This document shows, piece by piece, positions 11,583 to 47,189 of a DNA stretch of 52,084 nt. The notes beneath the pieces are model-generated. The model was not told the DNA's origin, ran no database searches, and worked only from the letters and a program-made list of their open reading frames with translations. A program made the position numbers and the translations under genes. The stretch is from Clostridia bacterium (GTDB lineage: Bacteria > Bacillota > Clostridia > UBA1212 > UBA1255), in the NCBI GenBank assembly GCA_016287565.1, contig JAEFAM010000008.1, positions 1-52,084 of the forward strand, read 5' to 3'. The stretch's first letter is position 1. The number at the start of each line of letters is the position of its first letter.

Positions 11583-11800
11583 AGCTAAATTCGTCCTGCG
11601 GACGAGCTAAATTGACCTTCGGTCAGCTAAATTCGCGCTGGCACGCGAGCTAAATTGCCGCTTTTCGCGGCAGCTAAATTCGTCCTTCGGACGAGCTAAA
11701 TTGACCTTCGGTCAGCTAAATTCGCGCTGGCGTGCGAGCTAAATTGCCGCTTACAGCGGCAGCTAAATTCGTCCTGCGGACGAGCTAAATTGACCTTTGA
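11583..11800. repeat. Hairpin array with AGCTAAATT spacers
   Basis: Ten copies of AGCTAAATT separate short perfect or near-perfect inverted repeats. Four stem types recur in fixed order: CGTCC/GGACG, GACC/GGTC, CGCGC/GCGCG-like, GCCGC/GCGGC. The set runs twice in full and starts a third time. Higher-order period is about 89-98 bp. Loops differ between copies (CTGCG versus CTTCG, CTTTTCG versus CTTACAG) while stems stay paired, including one compensated pair (GCACGCG versus GCGTGCG). The array fills the gap between the isomerase start and the rpmB terminator. It is not a CRISPR: the spacers are constant and the repeats are the hairpins. Confidence 0.9.
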
Positions 11801-34740: not shown

Positions 34741-35110
34741 TCACTTTCTCGCTCATTTTGAGCCTTCGGGCAGAGCGTCCTTCTTTCAAACGCCAAGAAT
34801 CAAGGGGGTAAGTGGTAAATTCTGGGCGTTTCTTGCTCATTTTTTGTTGTCGGGCGGTGCAGCTTCATTCCAAACGCCAAGAAATCCGAGTTAAGGGGCA
34901 AATTCTGGGTGTTTCTCGCTCGTTTGCGGCTTCAGAGGCAGCTCCGCTTCTTCCAAAACGCCCAGAAAATTGAGACAAACGGCAAAAAATGGGTGTTTCT
35001 CGCTCTTCGCAGTTTCAGAGACAGCGCCGCCTCTCCCAAAACGCCCAAAAAATCGAGACAGACGGCAAAATATGGGCGTTTCTCGCTCGGCTCGCCTTTC
35101 GAGACAGAGC
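34741..35110. repeat. Tandem array of 82-84-nt hairpin-plus-linker units (locus 1)
   Basis: Four hairpins of about 44 nt begin at 34788, 34872, 34956 and 35038 with AAACGCC and close with GGCGTTT or GGTGTTT. Each is followed by CTCGCTC or TTGCTCAT and a linker of about 40 nt rich in GCTTC, CAGAG and CTCC. An extra linker copy precedes the first hairpin. Period is 84, 84 and 82 nt. The region has no convincing coding potential; open frames across it change with repeat phase. Confidence 0.85.
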
Positions 35111-35142: not shown

Positions 35143-35394
35143 GCTGCCGCATCGCGGCAATTTAGCTGAATCCTGACAGCTCGAATGTATCGGACCGTCA
35201 GGGTTCAACATCACTCGCCGCAGGCGAATCTCACTCGTGCGTCAGCACGAACATCACTCCGCGAAGCGGAATATCACTGCGCTCCAGCGCAATCTCACTC
35301 GCCGCAGGCGAATCTCACTCGTGCGTCAGCACGAATCTCACTCGCCGCAGACGAATATCACTGCGCTCCGGCGCGAATCTCACTCCCGTAACGA
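35143..35394. repeat. Hairpin array, AATTTAGCT then ATATCAC/ATCTCAC spacers
   Basis: It begins with TGCCGCATCGCGGCA plus ATTTAGCT (the complement orientation of the 34.5-kb spacer) and a long imperfect stem at 35170-35206. Eight hairpins follow, separated by AATATCAC, AATCTCAC or AACATCAC. Stem order is CGCCG, CGTGCG, CCGCG, GCGCTC, CGCCG, CGTGCG, CGCCG, GCGCTC. All hairpins start with T and end with A or G. The array stops at the LD-carboxypeptidase stop codon. Confidence 0.87.
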
Positions 35395-37491: not shown

Positions 37492-37668
37492 TTCGTCCGC
37501 GCTCCTTCCGGTATCGATCTCGGTCAAATTATAGCTTATTCGCCGCGGCCGTTTCAAGCGGTGGCGCGATGGCGGTCAAAGAGTCCGGGCTGTGGCGGCC
37601 CATGCGTTCGCCTGCCGTGGATCCGGGCGGCCGTGCGCTGCCTTGAAGCTTAAAATCGGCGCGAAATA

Positions 37669-37826
37669 AATCACTGCGCGCCAGCGCAATATCACTCCGC
37701 GCAGCGGAATATCACTCGTGCGCCGGCACGAATTTAGCTGCCGCAACGTGGCAATTTCGCTCGGCGCAGCCGAATTTAGCTGAACACTGACAATCTTGCT
37801 TAATAGTCAGTGTTCAATTTAGCTGC
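37669..37826. repeat. Composite hairpin array joining ATATCAC and ATTTAGC spacers
   Basis: Six hairpins in order: TGCGC/GCGCA, TCCGC/GCGGA, TCGTGC/GCACGA, TGCCGC/GTGGCA, TCGGC/GCCGA and a long TGAACACTGAC stem at 37781-37817. Spacers switch from ATATCAC to ATTTAGC (once ATTTCGC). The first three stems match those of the 35.2-kb array. The flanking DNA (37558-37668) shows nothing recognisable. Confidence 0.87.
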
Positions 37827-43924: not shown

Positions 43925-44664
43925 CGCCCGCATCTTTTCCGCTTCCCGACAGGGACAAACTGCTCATCGTCGTCGCCACGGGCAACGACCACAAGGTCTC
44001 GGAGTTCAGGGCCATAATCGGTTCCGTTCTGCCGGAGGACCGTATCTGCGTCATTACCCAGAAGCAGGCCGCGTCGATATGCGGCAGGCGCTACGTTTCT
44101 CCCGAGGAGACGGGAAGCACCTTCGCCGAAAACGCCCGCATCAAATCGACGGCCTTGAGAGACTTCATAAGGGCGTCGGAGGAATTGACCGCCTACGCCG
44201 CCGGGTTCGGAGCCGCAGCCGATATAGCCGACGATTCGGGCCTGTGCGTTGACGCGCTGGGAGGAAGGCCGGGCATATACAGCGCCAGGTACGCCGCCGC
44301 GCCCGGGTCCTTCGACGACGCGGACGACGTTGACAACGTAAACAAACTTTTGAAAGATATGGAAGGGGTGCCTGACGGACGCCGCGGCGCCGGATTCAGC
44401 TGCCACATATCCGCCTTTTTGCTGTTCGGTTCAGGGCTCCGGTCGAGCATTGACGTGGAGACCAGAGGAGAACTCAGGGGCGTGGTGGCGCGAGAAGTCA
44501 TGGGAGAGGGAGGCTTCGGGTACGACCCGGTGCTGTTCATCCCGCGGCTGGGCAAAACCACCGCCATGCTGACGCCCGAAGAGAAAAATTCCATTAGCCA
44601 CAGGGGCAGGGCACTGAGAGCCGCCGCAGGAGAGATATATGGTCATTTTACAAAATTGCGATAA
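43921..44664 (+). CDS. rdgB: XTP/dITP diphosphatase (RdgB/HAM1 family)
   Basis: 247 aa. It removes non-canonical purine triphosphates. Motifs: VATGNDHKVSEF at the N-terminus, TFAENARIKS, ADDSGLCVDALGGRPGIYSARY, and GFGYDPVLFIPRLGKT. About 45 residues longer than usual, with inserts near 40-55 (ICVITQKQAASICGRRY) and 75-95. The start overlaps the lepB stop (ATGA). The end overlaps the next gene by 26 bp. Confidence 0.95.
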   Translation: MTPASFPLPDRDKLLIVVATGNDHKVSEFRAIIGSVLPEDRICVITQKQAASICGRRYVSPEETGSTFAENARIKSTALRDFIRASEELTAYAAGFGAAADIADDSGLCVDALGGRPGIYSARYAAAPGSFDDADDVDNVNKLLKDMEGVPDGRRGAGFSCHISAFLLFGSGLRSSIDVETRGELRGVVAREVMGEGGFGYDPVLFIPRLGKTTAMLTPEEKNSISHRGRALRAAAGEIYGHFTKLR

Positions 44665-45787
44665 TTACGAATATTCCGAAGTATACCGGAACGTTAAAGA
44701 GATATTCGACGCGTGCGGCGGTATCGAAACCATCGTCAGCCCCGGTATGAAGGTGGCGCTGAAGCCCAACCTTATTGGCAGGAAAAAGCCGGAAGAAGCG
44801 GCGACCACCCATCCTTCCATAGTCAGGGCCGTGGCGGAGCTTTGCAAAGAAGCGGGCGGCAGCGTCATGATCTGCGAAAGCCCCGGAGGCGTTTACGATA
44901 AAGGCGCCCTCAGGAGCATCTACAAGGCCACCGGTATCGAAGAAGCGGCGGAACTCTCCGGCGCGGAACTCAATTACGACACCTCGGTGACCAAGGTGGA
45001 AAATCCGGACGGCATGTACTTAAAGACGCTGGAGATACTTACGCCGCTGGCCGGGGCTGATATCGTCATAAATCTGGCCAAGCTCAAGACCCACGGCATG
45101 ATGGTGTACACGGGAGCCATGAAGAACCTGTTCGGAGCCATTGCCGGAGTGGGGAAGGCGGAATACCATTTCAAAATGCCGGATTACGATTCTTTCGCCA
45201 ACACGGTGATCGACATATATTTGTCCGTAAAGCCCTGCTTCAACATTATCGACGCTGTGGAGGGCATGCACCGGGACGGACCCACGGCGGGAGATCCGTA
45301 CCACGCGGGGATACTTATGGGAGCAGCCGACGCCTTCGAGCTCGACCGGGTGGCCCTGGACATGATCGGCGCGGAGCTCGGCCGGGTGCCTATGGGTAGG
45401 ATGGCCGTGGCCCGAGGACTGATGGCGGAAAACGTTCAGGATATCGACGTCAGAGGCGACGTCTCCCTTAAAAAGGCGGAAGAGCGCTGCCGGGATTTCG
45501 TGGTGAAATATAACGACGGCAACACCCGCCTCCACTTCAGCGACGGCGTGCTGGGCAGGGCAATGGAAAAGATGATGAAGCCCAAGCCGGTGTTCACTAA
45601 AGATTGCCGCAGCTGCGGAGAGTGCATGCGCAACTGCCCAGTAAAAGCCATCACCGTGGAAAAGGGAAAGCGGGCAACGGCGGATCTGGACAAGTGCATC
45701 AGATGCTACTGCTGCCAGGAGCTCTGCCCGTTCAAGGCGGTCAAGATCAAAAAGCCCCTCGTGGGCAGGATCGCCGGGAAGCTGTGA
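44639..45787 (+). CDS. DUF362 domain protein with 2x[4Fe-4S] ferredoxin domain
   Basis: 382 aa. The N-terminal DUF362 domain (about 1-310: VALKPNLIGRKKPEEAATTH, KTHGMMVYTGAMKNLFGAI) is followed by a C-terminal bacterial-type ferredoxin with two CxxCxxCxxxCP clusters (CRSCGECMRNCP and CIRCYCCQELCP). Probably a cytoplasmic redox or cofactor-related enzyme; no defined reaction is known for the family. It begins within rdgB (26-bp overlap). The AATGGCA repeat block begins right after its TGA stop. Confidence 0.92.
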   Translation: MVILQNCDNYEYSEVYRNVKEIFDACGGIETIVSPGMKVALKPNLIGRKKPEEAATTHPSIVRAVAELCKEAGGSVMICESPGGVYDKGALRSIYKATGIEEAAELSGAELNYDTSVTKVENPDGMYLKTLEILTPLAGADIVINLAKLKTHGMMVYTGAMKNLFGAIAGVGKAEYHFKMPDYDSFANTVIDIYLSVKPCFNIIDAVEGMHRDGPTAGDPYHAGILMGAADAFELDRVALDMIGAELGRVPMGRMAVARGLMAENVQDIDVRGDVSLKKAEERCRDFVVKYNDGNTRLHFSDGVLGRAMEKMMKPKPVFTKDCRSCGECMRNCPVKAITVEKGKRATADLDKCIRCYCCQELCPFKAVKIKKPLVGRIAGKL

Positions 45788-45944
45788 GAAATGGCAAATG
45801 GCAAATTGAAAATGGCAAATGGCAAATGGCAAATTGAAAATGGCAAATGGCAAATGGCAAATGGCAAATTGAAAATGGCAAATGGCAAATGGCAAATTGA
45901 AAATGGCAAATGGCAAATTGCAAGTTGAAAGCGATAAATTGGAT
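45788..45944 (+). repeat. Left block of AATGGCA heptamer repeats beside the four-helix-bundle gene
   Basis: AATGGCA heptamers occur in runs of two to four, each run closed by AATTGAA. The pattern decays into AATTGCAAGTTGAAAGCG toward the gene. It begins directly after the DUF362 stop codon. The right block (46440-46530) carries the complementary sequence in opposite orientation. Confidence 0.88.
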
Positions 45945-46373
45945 GTGATAAATAGCAAGTGATTAAGGGCGAAGGGAAATTGGTTTTTCGGGATATGGAT
46001 AATCTGATCGAGAACAAAAGTTTTGATTTTGCTGTCAGGATCGTAAAACTGAGCCAGTTCCTTAATGAGCAGAAGAAAGAATTTGTCATATCGAAACAGA
46101 TTCTTCGTTCCGGCACAAGCATAGGCGCCAACGTTGCCGAAGCGCAGCAGGGACAAAGCCACGCGGATTTCATTTCGAAGATGAACATTGCGCTAAAAGA
46201 GGCAGCGGAGACAAAGTACTGGATCCGCCTTTTAGAAGCGACAGGATATTTGACGGAGACCGAGACGGAGGCCCTCCTTGCGGAGTGTGTCAAAATCGAA
46301 AAAATACTCTATTCGATCGTCCGCACATCGAAAATAAAGAAATGATTTGCAACCTCCGATTTTTATTTATCAC
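45945..46373. mobile_element. Candidate IVS-like element: four-helix-bundle gene inside a 10-bp inverted repeat
   Basis: GTGATAAATA at 45945-45954 and its exact complement TATTTATCAC at 46364-46373 bracket the four-helix-bundle gene. Outside them lie oppositely oriented repeat blocks. The internal GC content is visibly lower than that of neighbouring genes. No transposase or target duplication is seen, so mobility is inferred from structure only. Confidence 0.5.
45995..46345 (+). CDS. Four-helix-bundle protein (TIGR02436 / 23S IVS-encoded family)
   Basis: 116 aa, small, helical, no membrane segment. NLIENKSFDFAVRIVKLSQFL, SKQILRSGTSIGANVAEAQ (as two segments), KMNIALKEAAETKYWIRLL are clear signatures of the family first seen in 23S rRNA intervening sequences and related to Avd of diversity-generating retroelements. 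Those proteins form pentameric, nucleic-acid-binding bundles (family knowledge). The ATG at 45995 gives the usual MDN-type N-terminus; the frame is open from a GTG at 45959. It lies between oppositely oriented repeat blocks, with no rRNA or reverse transcriptase nearby. Confidence 0.9.
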   Translation: MDNLIENKSFDFAVRIVKLSQFLNEQKKEFVISKQILRSGTSIGANVAEAQQGQSHADFISKMNIALKEAAETKYWIRLLEATGYLTETETEALLAECVKIEKILYSIVRTSKIKK

Positions 46374-46375
46374 TT

Positions 46376-46530
46376 AAAAATTGCAAATTGCAAATTGAAA
46401 ATTGAAAGATAAGAATTGCAAATTGAGAATGAGAAAAGGAAATCATCATTTCCCATTTACCATTTCCAATTTGCCATTTCCCATTTGCCACTTGCCATTT
46501 GCCATTTCCCATTTGCAATTTGCCATTTAT
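46376..46530 (-). repeat. Right block of repeats, inverted relative to the left block
   Basis: AATTGCA/AATTGAA units (46376-46426) are followed from 46450 by TGCCATT heptamers and TCCCATT variants, the complement of the left-hand AATGGCA units. It stops 20 bp before the trmL start. Repeated TTGCCA hexamers near TATAAA (46527-46532) could supply a trmL promoter (weak inference). Confidence 0.83.
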
Positions 46531-46550
46531 AAACGTTTCGGAGTGATTGT

Positions 46551-47054
46551 ATGTTTCGTGGGTTAAACATTGTGCTTGTGGAGCCGGAGATACCTCAGAA
46601 TACGGGAAACATTGCCAGGACCTGCGCCTGCACCGGTTCCCACCTTCATCTGGTGAGGCCTTTGGGCTTCGAGATAGACGACAGGAAATTGAAGCGCGCC
46701 GGACTGGACTACTGGGACCGGCTGGATATAACTTATTACGACTGCTTCGAAGACGTGCTTGAAAAAGCGGGTGAGGGAAGCAGGTTCTTCCTTTTTACCA
46801 CCAAGGCCAAACGGAGATATTCGGACCAGGCGTTCAGGGACGGCGACTATCTGGTGTTCGGCAAGGAGACTCACGGGCTTCCGGAGCCGCTGCTCAGGGC
46901 GAATTATGAAAAATGCCTCCGCATTCCCATGGGAGGCGAACTGAGATCTTTAAACCTCAGCAATTCGGTGGCGATCGCTGTGTACGAGGCGCTGCGCCAG
47001 CTGGATTTTGAAGGGCTGGAGTCGGAGGGCCATCTCACCGGAAGACCGGATTGA
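46551..47054 (+). CDS. trmL: tRNA (cytidine(34)-2'-O)-methyltransferase TrmL
   Basis: 167 aa SPOUT methyltransferase that 2'-O-methylates the wobble base of tRNA-Leu species. Motifs: LVEPEIPQNTGNIARTC, LVFGKETHGLPE and IPMGGELRSLNLSNSVAIAVYE, the last forming the trefoil knot. RBS CGGAGTG. It stands alone between the four-helix-bundle element and a long repeat region. Its C-terminus extends about 10 residues past the usual end. Confidence 0.95.
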   Translation: MFRGLNIVLVEPEIPQNTGNIARTCACTGSHLHLVRPLGFEIDDRKLKRAGLDYWDRLDITYYDCFEDVLEKAGEGSRFFLFTTKAKRRYSDQAFRDGDYLVFGKETHGLPEPLLRANYEKCLRIPMGGELRSLNLSNSVAIAVYEALRQLDFEGLESEGHLTGRPD

Positions 47055-47189
47055 CGTTGATTGTCGTATTTATTCAATGTCCATATTAGGCTCTTTTCAT
47101 GATACCGTCAGAAATGGTCCTGGACGATCACGGATAATGCGAAAGTTTTTTATAATAGGGTTCCTTTCAACATAATCAATGGGACGAAA

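Follow-up and report, generated by a model that had tools for sequence, protein, structure and literature searches.

What is a small gene for a four-helix-bundle protein doing between two opposed blocks of tandem heptamers, immediately downstream of a DUF362/ferredoxin gene and just ahead of trmL? The locus lies in the 52,084-nt window analysed here, which is the entire contig C49 (JAEFAM010000008.1) of the draft 2.6-Mb genome of a Clostridia bacterium. On balance, we believe that it is probably one copy of a widespread group of small (roughly 0.4-0.8 kb) mobile elements resembling the intervening sequences (IVSs) of rRNA, but situated outside rRNA and accompanied by gene-less derivatives. The unit of these elements is a TIGR02436/PF05635 gene between opposed short tandem arrays, usually of heptamers with an AAT-type core. 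The same arrangement is seen in several phyla, the gene is accompanied by its arms even where the sites are unrelated, and a single site can be found in occupied and empty versions.

The DUF362-trmL locus

The features of the locus, in window coordinates, are as follows.

44639..45787, + strand: DUF362/ferredoxin gene, the left neighbour, with its TGA stop at 45785-45787
45789..45923, + strand: left arm, about 19 tandem heptamers of AAATGGC and AAATTGA variants, starting one base past the DUF362 stop
45929..45963, + strand: inner left repeat AAGTGATAAATAGC, 14 nt in 2.5 copies, containing the left half of a 10-bp inverted repeat
45959..46345, + strand: four-helix-bundle gene, TIGR02436/PF05635 by profile matches, 128 aa, listed with a GTG start
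46364..46373, + strand: TATTTATCAC, right half of the exact 10-bp inverted repeat
46377..46430, + strand: AAATTGC/AAATTGA heptamers, left half of a gene-less palindrome within the right flank
46431..46451, + strand: core GAGAAAAGGAAATCATCATTT, 21 nt, also present in gene-less copies on contigs C33 and C71
46447..46528, - strand: right arm, about 12 inverted heptamers CATTTGC/CATTTCC, complementary to the left arm
46551..47054, + strand: trmL, the right neighbour, used to locate empty sites in relatives

A preliminary description, made from the sequence alone, had placed the gene within an exact 10-bp inverted repeat (GTGATAAATA at 45945-45954, TATTTATCAC at 46364-46373), with opposed heptamer blocks outside it, and both were found exactly where it put them; between the right array and the trmL ATG (46551) lie 22 bp. 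The gene matches TIGR02436 (9e-34) and PF05635 (6e-30), the latter being its only Pfam match in a profile search, with no match to a Y1 (TnpA_REP) transposase; homologues begin at Met13, corresponding to the ATG at 45995. The arms pair over 82-92 nt at 84-89% complementarity, giving a local inverted-repeat score of 119, a value of 29 being the highest in any of 20 shuffles, and RNA folding of the locus pairs the left and right blocks (-231 kcal/mol, z = -6.8), in agreement with the earlier proposal of a long stem that carries the gene in its loop. The right flank has more than one component: 46377-46528 resembles a complete gene-less palindrome, made of AAATTG heptamers, the core GAGAAAAGGAAATCATCATTT and CATTTGCC heptamers. 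An Rfam scan of 44600-47100 revealed no rRNA, and the proposed IVS-like architecture without rRNA, a PF05635 open reading frame (ORF) between complementary arms in a DUF362-trmL setting, thus holds. The matches that the scan did return were weak eukaryotic miRNA and snoRNA models, far under their gathering scores, and were treated as chance.

Inverted arms across the PF05635 family

The architecture is not peculiar to this locus. A first set drew on genomes of many phyla (80 loci) and on viral contigs (15), with 88 genes having full flanks; flanks were called inverted when the left and right 200 bp gave an inverted repeat score of at least 30, and 576 other ORFs on the same contigs served as controls. 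Inverted flanks were present in 72% of the 88 PF05635-related loci and 1.2% of the controls, and the best period was a lag of 7 in 69 left and 56 right flanks. Loci showing both signs include members of the Acidobacteriota, Planctomycetota, Cyanobacteriota, Campylobacterota, Elusimicrobiota and Fibrobacterota. After dereplication at 70% identity the difference persists (49/63 versus 7/576, P = 1e-52). Because the first set had been chosen by likeness to the query, a second, independent one was assembled from family HMM matches in 12 genomes, the divergent 'VWQKA' branch included, and inverted flanks were found in 16 of its 22 loci.

The heptamers share an AAT-like consensus and are otherwise variable (AATTGAC, AATGGAT, AATTCAT, AATTACG, AAATGGC, AAGTGAT); their position matrix carries 4.16 bits of information, compared with 2.62 for letter-shuffled heptamers. 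A strand signal was also considered and set aside: there is none that is clear in the AATT-like core, because orientation-scrambled heptamers reach 4.21 bits. Within one locus, the two arms agree in inverted orientation at 6.31 of 7 positions, whereas arms of different loci agree at 4.26 and arms of the same locus read in direct orientation at 4.09. Protein identity, in turn, predicts the heptamer (Mantel r = 0.37, P < 0.0005), and most pairs of proteins that are more than 80% identical but lie at unrelated sites have the same heptamer, as do the gene described here and its counterpart in another Clostridia genome (L076). The match of arms within a locus and the correlation of protein with heptamer lead us to conclude that gene and arms behave as one unit. 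The co-variation is compatible with binding of the arms by the protein, but would also be expected from joint inheritance of the two.

Not all arms are built of heptamers. The second PF05635 gene of this genome, on contig C140, lies between inverted tandem arrays whose unit, about 22 nt long, consists of AGCTAAATT and a G+C hairpin, and in the congeners G004 and G002 relatives lie between inverted AAGTGGC heptamers and inverted 22-mers. Some PF05635 genes of Prevotella (L196, L197, L176) have inverted arms of 8-nt (GTAAAAAG) or 11-nt (CCCTTTAACTT) units. In a type I restriction-modification operon on a Monoglobus pectinilyticus plasmid (L288), the S and R genes are separated by a four-helix-bundle gene that is not annotated and has AATTAGG-type arms.

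Occupied sites, empty sites and arrays without a gene

The preliminary description had also suggested that the unit may move, and comparison with relatives argues in its favour: the gene is not fixed at DUF362-trmL, and all six congeners holding the junction (6/6) lack it. In three of them the interval is 13-51 bp; in the others it holds an array, made of AATGGCA and 90 bp long in G003, of AAGTTTT and short in G002, and of a longer unit in G005. Between the pgi stop and the next gene, the present genome carries a gene-less heptamer palindrome where 5/5 congeners have only a short spacer. The C140 site is little informative, as its upstream gene was found in only one congener and is followed there by different sequence. 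In Prevotella, gene and arms occupy a gap of about 490 bp between araD and araA in five genomes, the gap being 30-56 bp in many relatives, and some Prevotella with the empty site are nearer to carrier G058 by AraA (94-96%) than are the other carriers (81-92%). In L210 and L213 this junction, the site of the four-helix-bundle element in relatives, instead holds another palindromic insertion, about 150 bp long and with ACGAATTACACGAATT-type repeats.

Plasmids of the Nostoc type supply two further sites. A cytosine methyltransferase gene is intact in four of them and split in three by a copy of the element whose inverted arms are of AATTCGC. The split versions lack about 330 nt of the methyltransferase gene; one of them has three units in both arms and the other two four. 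Likewise, cas2 and cas1 are adjacent in two plasmids and separated in two others by a copy of the element in antisense. The presence of copies in cas and restriction-modification loci might suggest a gene that independently serves the host or its defence, such as a CRISPR-associated one, with a structured leader and trailer, and PMC3936711 includes such genes in its list of functions in cas loci. We regard this as highly improbable: one copy splits a methyltransferase gene, homologous cas2-cas1 loci exist without a copy, and other neighbours (ara, trp, lgt and trmL) are unrelated. The plasmid copies at cas1-cas2 have empty-site counterparts, as insertion would predict, and they recommend caution about guilt by association, IVP genes in cas loci having been read as possible CRISPR-linked functions (PMC3936711).

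Arrays also occur by themselves. AAATGGC-type heptamers are found without a gene at four other places in this genome, and within the genus the pattern (counted as pattern hits, not loci) occurs 328 times in G004, 277 in G001, 169 in G006, 80 in this genome, 33 in G002, 30 in G003 and not at all in G005; that is, 30-328 hits in 6/7 genomes of the genus and 0-2 in 51 genomes outside it. The arm unit of the Richelia gene gives 1050 hits in its own genome, with no hit in 11 of 12 other genomes and a single one in the twelfth. GTGAAGA arrays are present in Prevotella G058, where such arms were seen at none of the three PF05635 genes; since GTGAARA counts are high in this genome as well, the array type need not match the gene arms of the same genome. 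The idea that the heptamers are specific to the gene therefore fails, both at the four places here and in G001, where no gene was detected. Heptamers common without the gene were named by the preliminary description itself as evidence against it, and they count against it in that form unless such copies are read as gene-less derivatives.

These arrays form the basis of another explanation, according to which the heptamers form an independent repeat class, slippage-born or otherwise mobilised, with the gene settling in or beside them as a passenger. It would account for arrays that far outnumber genes and exist without them, for the GTGAAGA arrays of G058 and for the gene-less arrays of differing units at DUF362-trmL in three congeners. 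At the same time, the arms are inverted, matched per locus, tight around the gene and co-varying with the protein. Moreover, a 21-nt core between half-arms is common to three places of this genome, the right flank of the gene among them, so that these places resemble mutual copies rather than products of independent slippage; simple slippage makes neither inverted pairs nor a core common to three copies. We consider the passenger explanation quite improbable. Under the reading that we prefer, in which gene and arms form one mobile element, gene-less arrays at sites that are empty in relatives are probably its non-autonomous derivatives.

Several other arrays deserve mention. At 11583-11797 of the window, an array of AGCTAAATT and G+C hairpins in units of about 22 nt is 85% identical to the left arm of the C140 gene, and is therefore probably a gene-less copy of that element's arm. 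Arrays of a unit of about 20 nt, ATCACT plus a short G+C hairpin, at 35211-35385 and 37661-37724 are in the style of the AGCTAAATT array with a different spacer, and an 83-nt tandem repeat (2.7 copies, 79% matches) lies at 34862-35089. In G006, G001 and G004 (L235, L244 and L247, respectively), heptamer arrays adjoin a second kind of dispersed repeat, CGAAATGCGGACCG...AAATTCGTGTCATCATCCGGTTCGC, a hint that intergenic repeats may be composite.

A proposed DNA-level route, and comparison with known systems

How might such a unit spread? The protein is modelled with high confidence (pLDDT 91), and its best structural match is 2RLD (BT_0352, Z 21.4), followed by the crystallised Xanthomonas XCC0516 (2GSC, Z 16.6), which reportedly forms a homopentamer (PMC4990558). 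No catalytic domain was found in the four-helix-bundle protein, and the element, which encodes neither a nuclease nor a polymerase, must depend on host enzymes. We propose that the protein would bind the heptamer arms, these most likely taking the form of a DNA hairpin or cruciform, and that the arm-bound protein may enable the unit to be copied elsewhere by enzymes of host replication or repair. At the RNA level, the long stem that holds the gene in its loop probably limits damage to the host transcript, by analogy with 23S rRNA IVSs.

An RNA-level element, an IVS or retroelement whose mobile form is the folded transcript, bound by an Avd-like protein and served by a reverse transcriptase in trans, is an alternative that we judge unlikely. 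Its appeal lies in the predicted stem, which is stable and places the gene in its loop, in the original description of the family in 23S rRNA IVSs (PMC4990558) and in the match of the fold to an Avd chain within a ribonucleoprotein of a diversity-generating retroelement (DGR) (Z 14.4 at 18% identity, with an rmsd of 2.0 over 111 residues), unrelated bundles reaching a Z of 12.9. The gene also shares the orientation of both neighbours in 63/97 cases (65%), compared with 50% of controls, an agreement too loose for strictly same-strand insertion, which we reject. Set against these observations, mismatches in the arms show no excess of G-U wobbles (123 versus 130), that is, no signature of selection on RNA and nothing to bear out the transcript fold as a driver; the copies between cas2 and cas1 are antisense; and G001 and G004, the genomes with most arrays and both incomplete, have no RVT_1 match. 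A reverse transcriptase in trans, considered as a requirement, was set aside on this last account; the only RVT_1 match of the present genome is on contig C72, not C49. A search for a 23S motif in the fetched loci found none, so that they offered no rRNA-borne copy for comparison. Given the lack of G-U excess, the lack of a reverse transcriptase in G001 and G004, the antisense cas copies and the missing host sequence, we favour a DNA-level route using host enzymes. None of this evidence is decisive, as tandem arrays are hard to align, the genomes are incomplete and the deletions may be later events.

A number of observations weigh against a mobile, arm-recognising element as a whole. That the protein binds the arms is something we infer. 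About 28% of the sampled genes lack inverted flanks within 200 bp, some Clostridia members have both heptamer orientations upstream of the gene, and gene-less arrays, in G001 with no gene detected, far outnumber genes. No target-site duplication was seen, the plasmid sites showing loss of host sequence when filled and the chromosomal spacers being too diverged, for which reason the ends of the Prevotella insertion are undefined; exact element ends could not be defined and no transposition was observed. Overall, the architecture and the mobility put forward in the preliminary description are borne out, and the heptamer specificity and the transcript fold as driving force are not.

PF05635 proteins have remained without an assigned function since their description in rRNA IVSs, and bacterial heptanucleotide repeats without an agreed origin. 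That the gene lies between inverted heptamer arms in different phyla connects these two puzzles and makes both testable. A broader proposal, still tentative and in our estimation somewhat short of an even chance, is that TIGR02436/PF05635 genes constitute a bacteria-wide, heptamer-armed mobile superfamily, and that many heptanucleotide repeats (the cyanobacterial STRRs, GGGAATC, TAACTGA and the heptamers of Clostridia and Bacteroidota) are gene-less descendants spread via recognition of the arms by their four-helix-bundle protein. The family-wide architecture seems to be undescribed: no tie between the gene family and heptamer arms was found in the accessible parts of the literature on IVSs (PMC4990558, PMC11270868), on heptamer repeats (PMC4679880, PMC4692102), on a minisatellite-bearing miniature inverted-repeat transposable element (MITE) (PMC4596501) or on IVP genes in cas loci (PMC3936711), a partial coverage that does not establish priority.

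Among known systems, the closest in kind are the IVSs of 23S and 16S rRNA with their S23p/IVP ORF, as in Leptospira, Coxiella and the rRNA insertions of CPR bacteria. They share with the present element the protein family, an ORF in the loop of a stem formed by terminal inverted repeats, a sporadic distribution and the existence of ORF-less versions; the element described here, however, lies outside rRNA, between protein genes and inside one, and its arms are tandem heptamer arrays. Heptanucleotide repeats (cyanobacterial STRRs, Xanthomonas GGGAATC, Beggiatoaceae TAACTGA) are likewise dispersed, intergenic tandem heptamers with a genome- or group-specific unit, and inverted pairs are reported in Xanthomonas (PMC4692102); they are described, in the sources as accessible, without a link to a gene family, whereas here a gene lies between the arrays. 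The Avd protein of DGRs has the same fold but only about 18% identity, and contig C49 has no reverse transcriptase. Avd is not known to occur with flanking heptamer arms. MITEs, including BrickBuilt of P. gingivalis with its 23-nt minisatellite, are similarly short, intergenic, stem-forming, patchy among relatives and equipped with internal tandem repeats. They have terminal repeats of insertion sequence (IS) type and no gene (PMC4596501); such termini were not seen here, though no IS-database comparison was made, and the gene matches PF05635-type families only. Finally, REP/RAYT systems offer a comparison in manner of working only: there, too, a gene lies between inverted palindromic repeats and is accompanied by many gene-less copies, but the protein is a Y1 transposase, where the element described here has a four-helix bundle.
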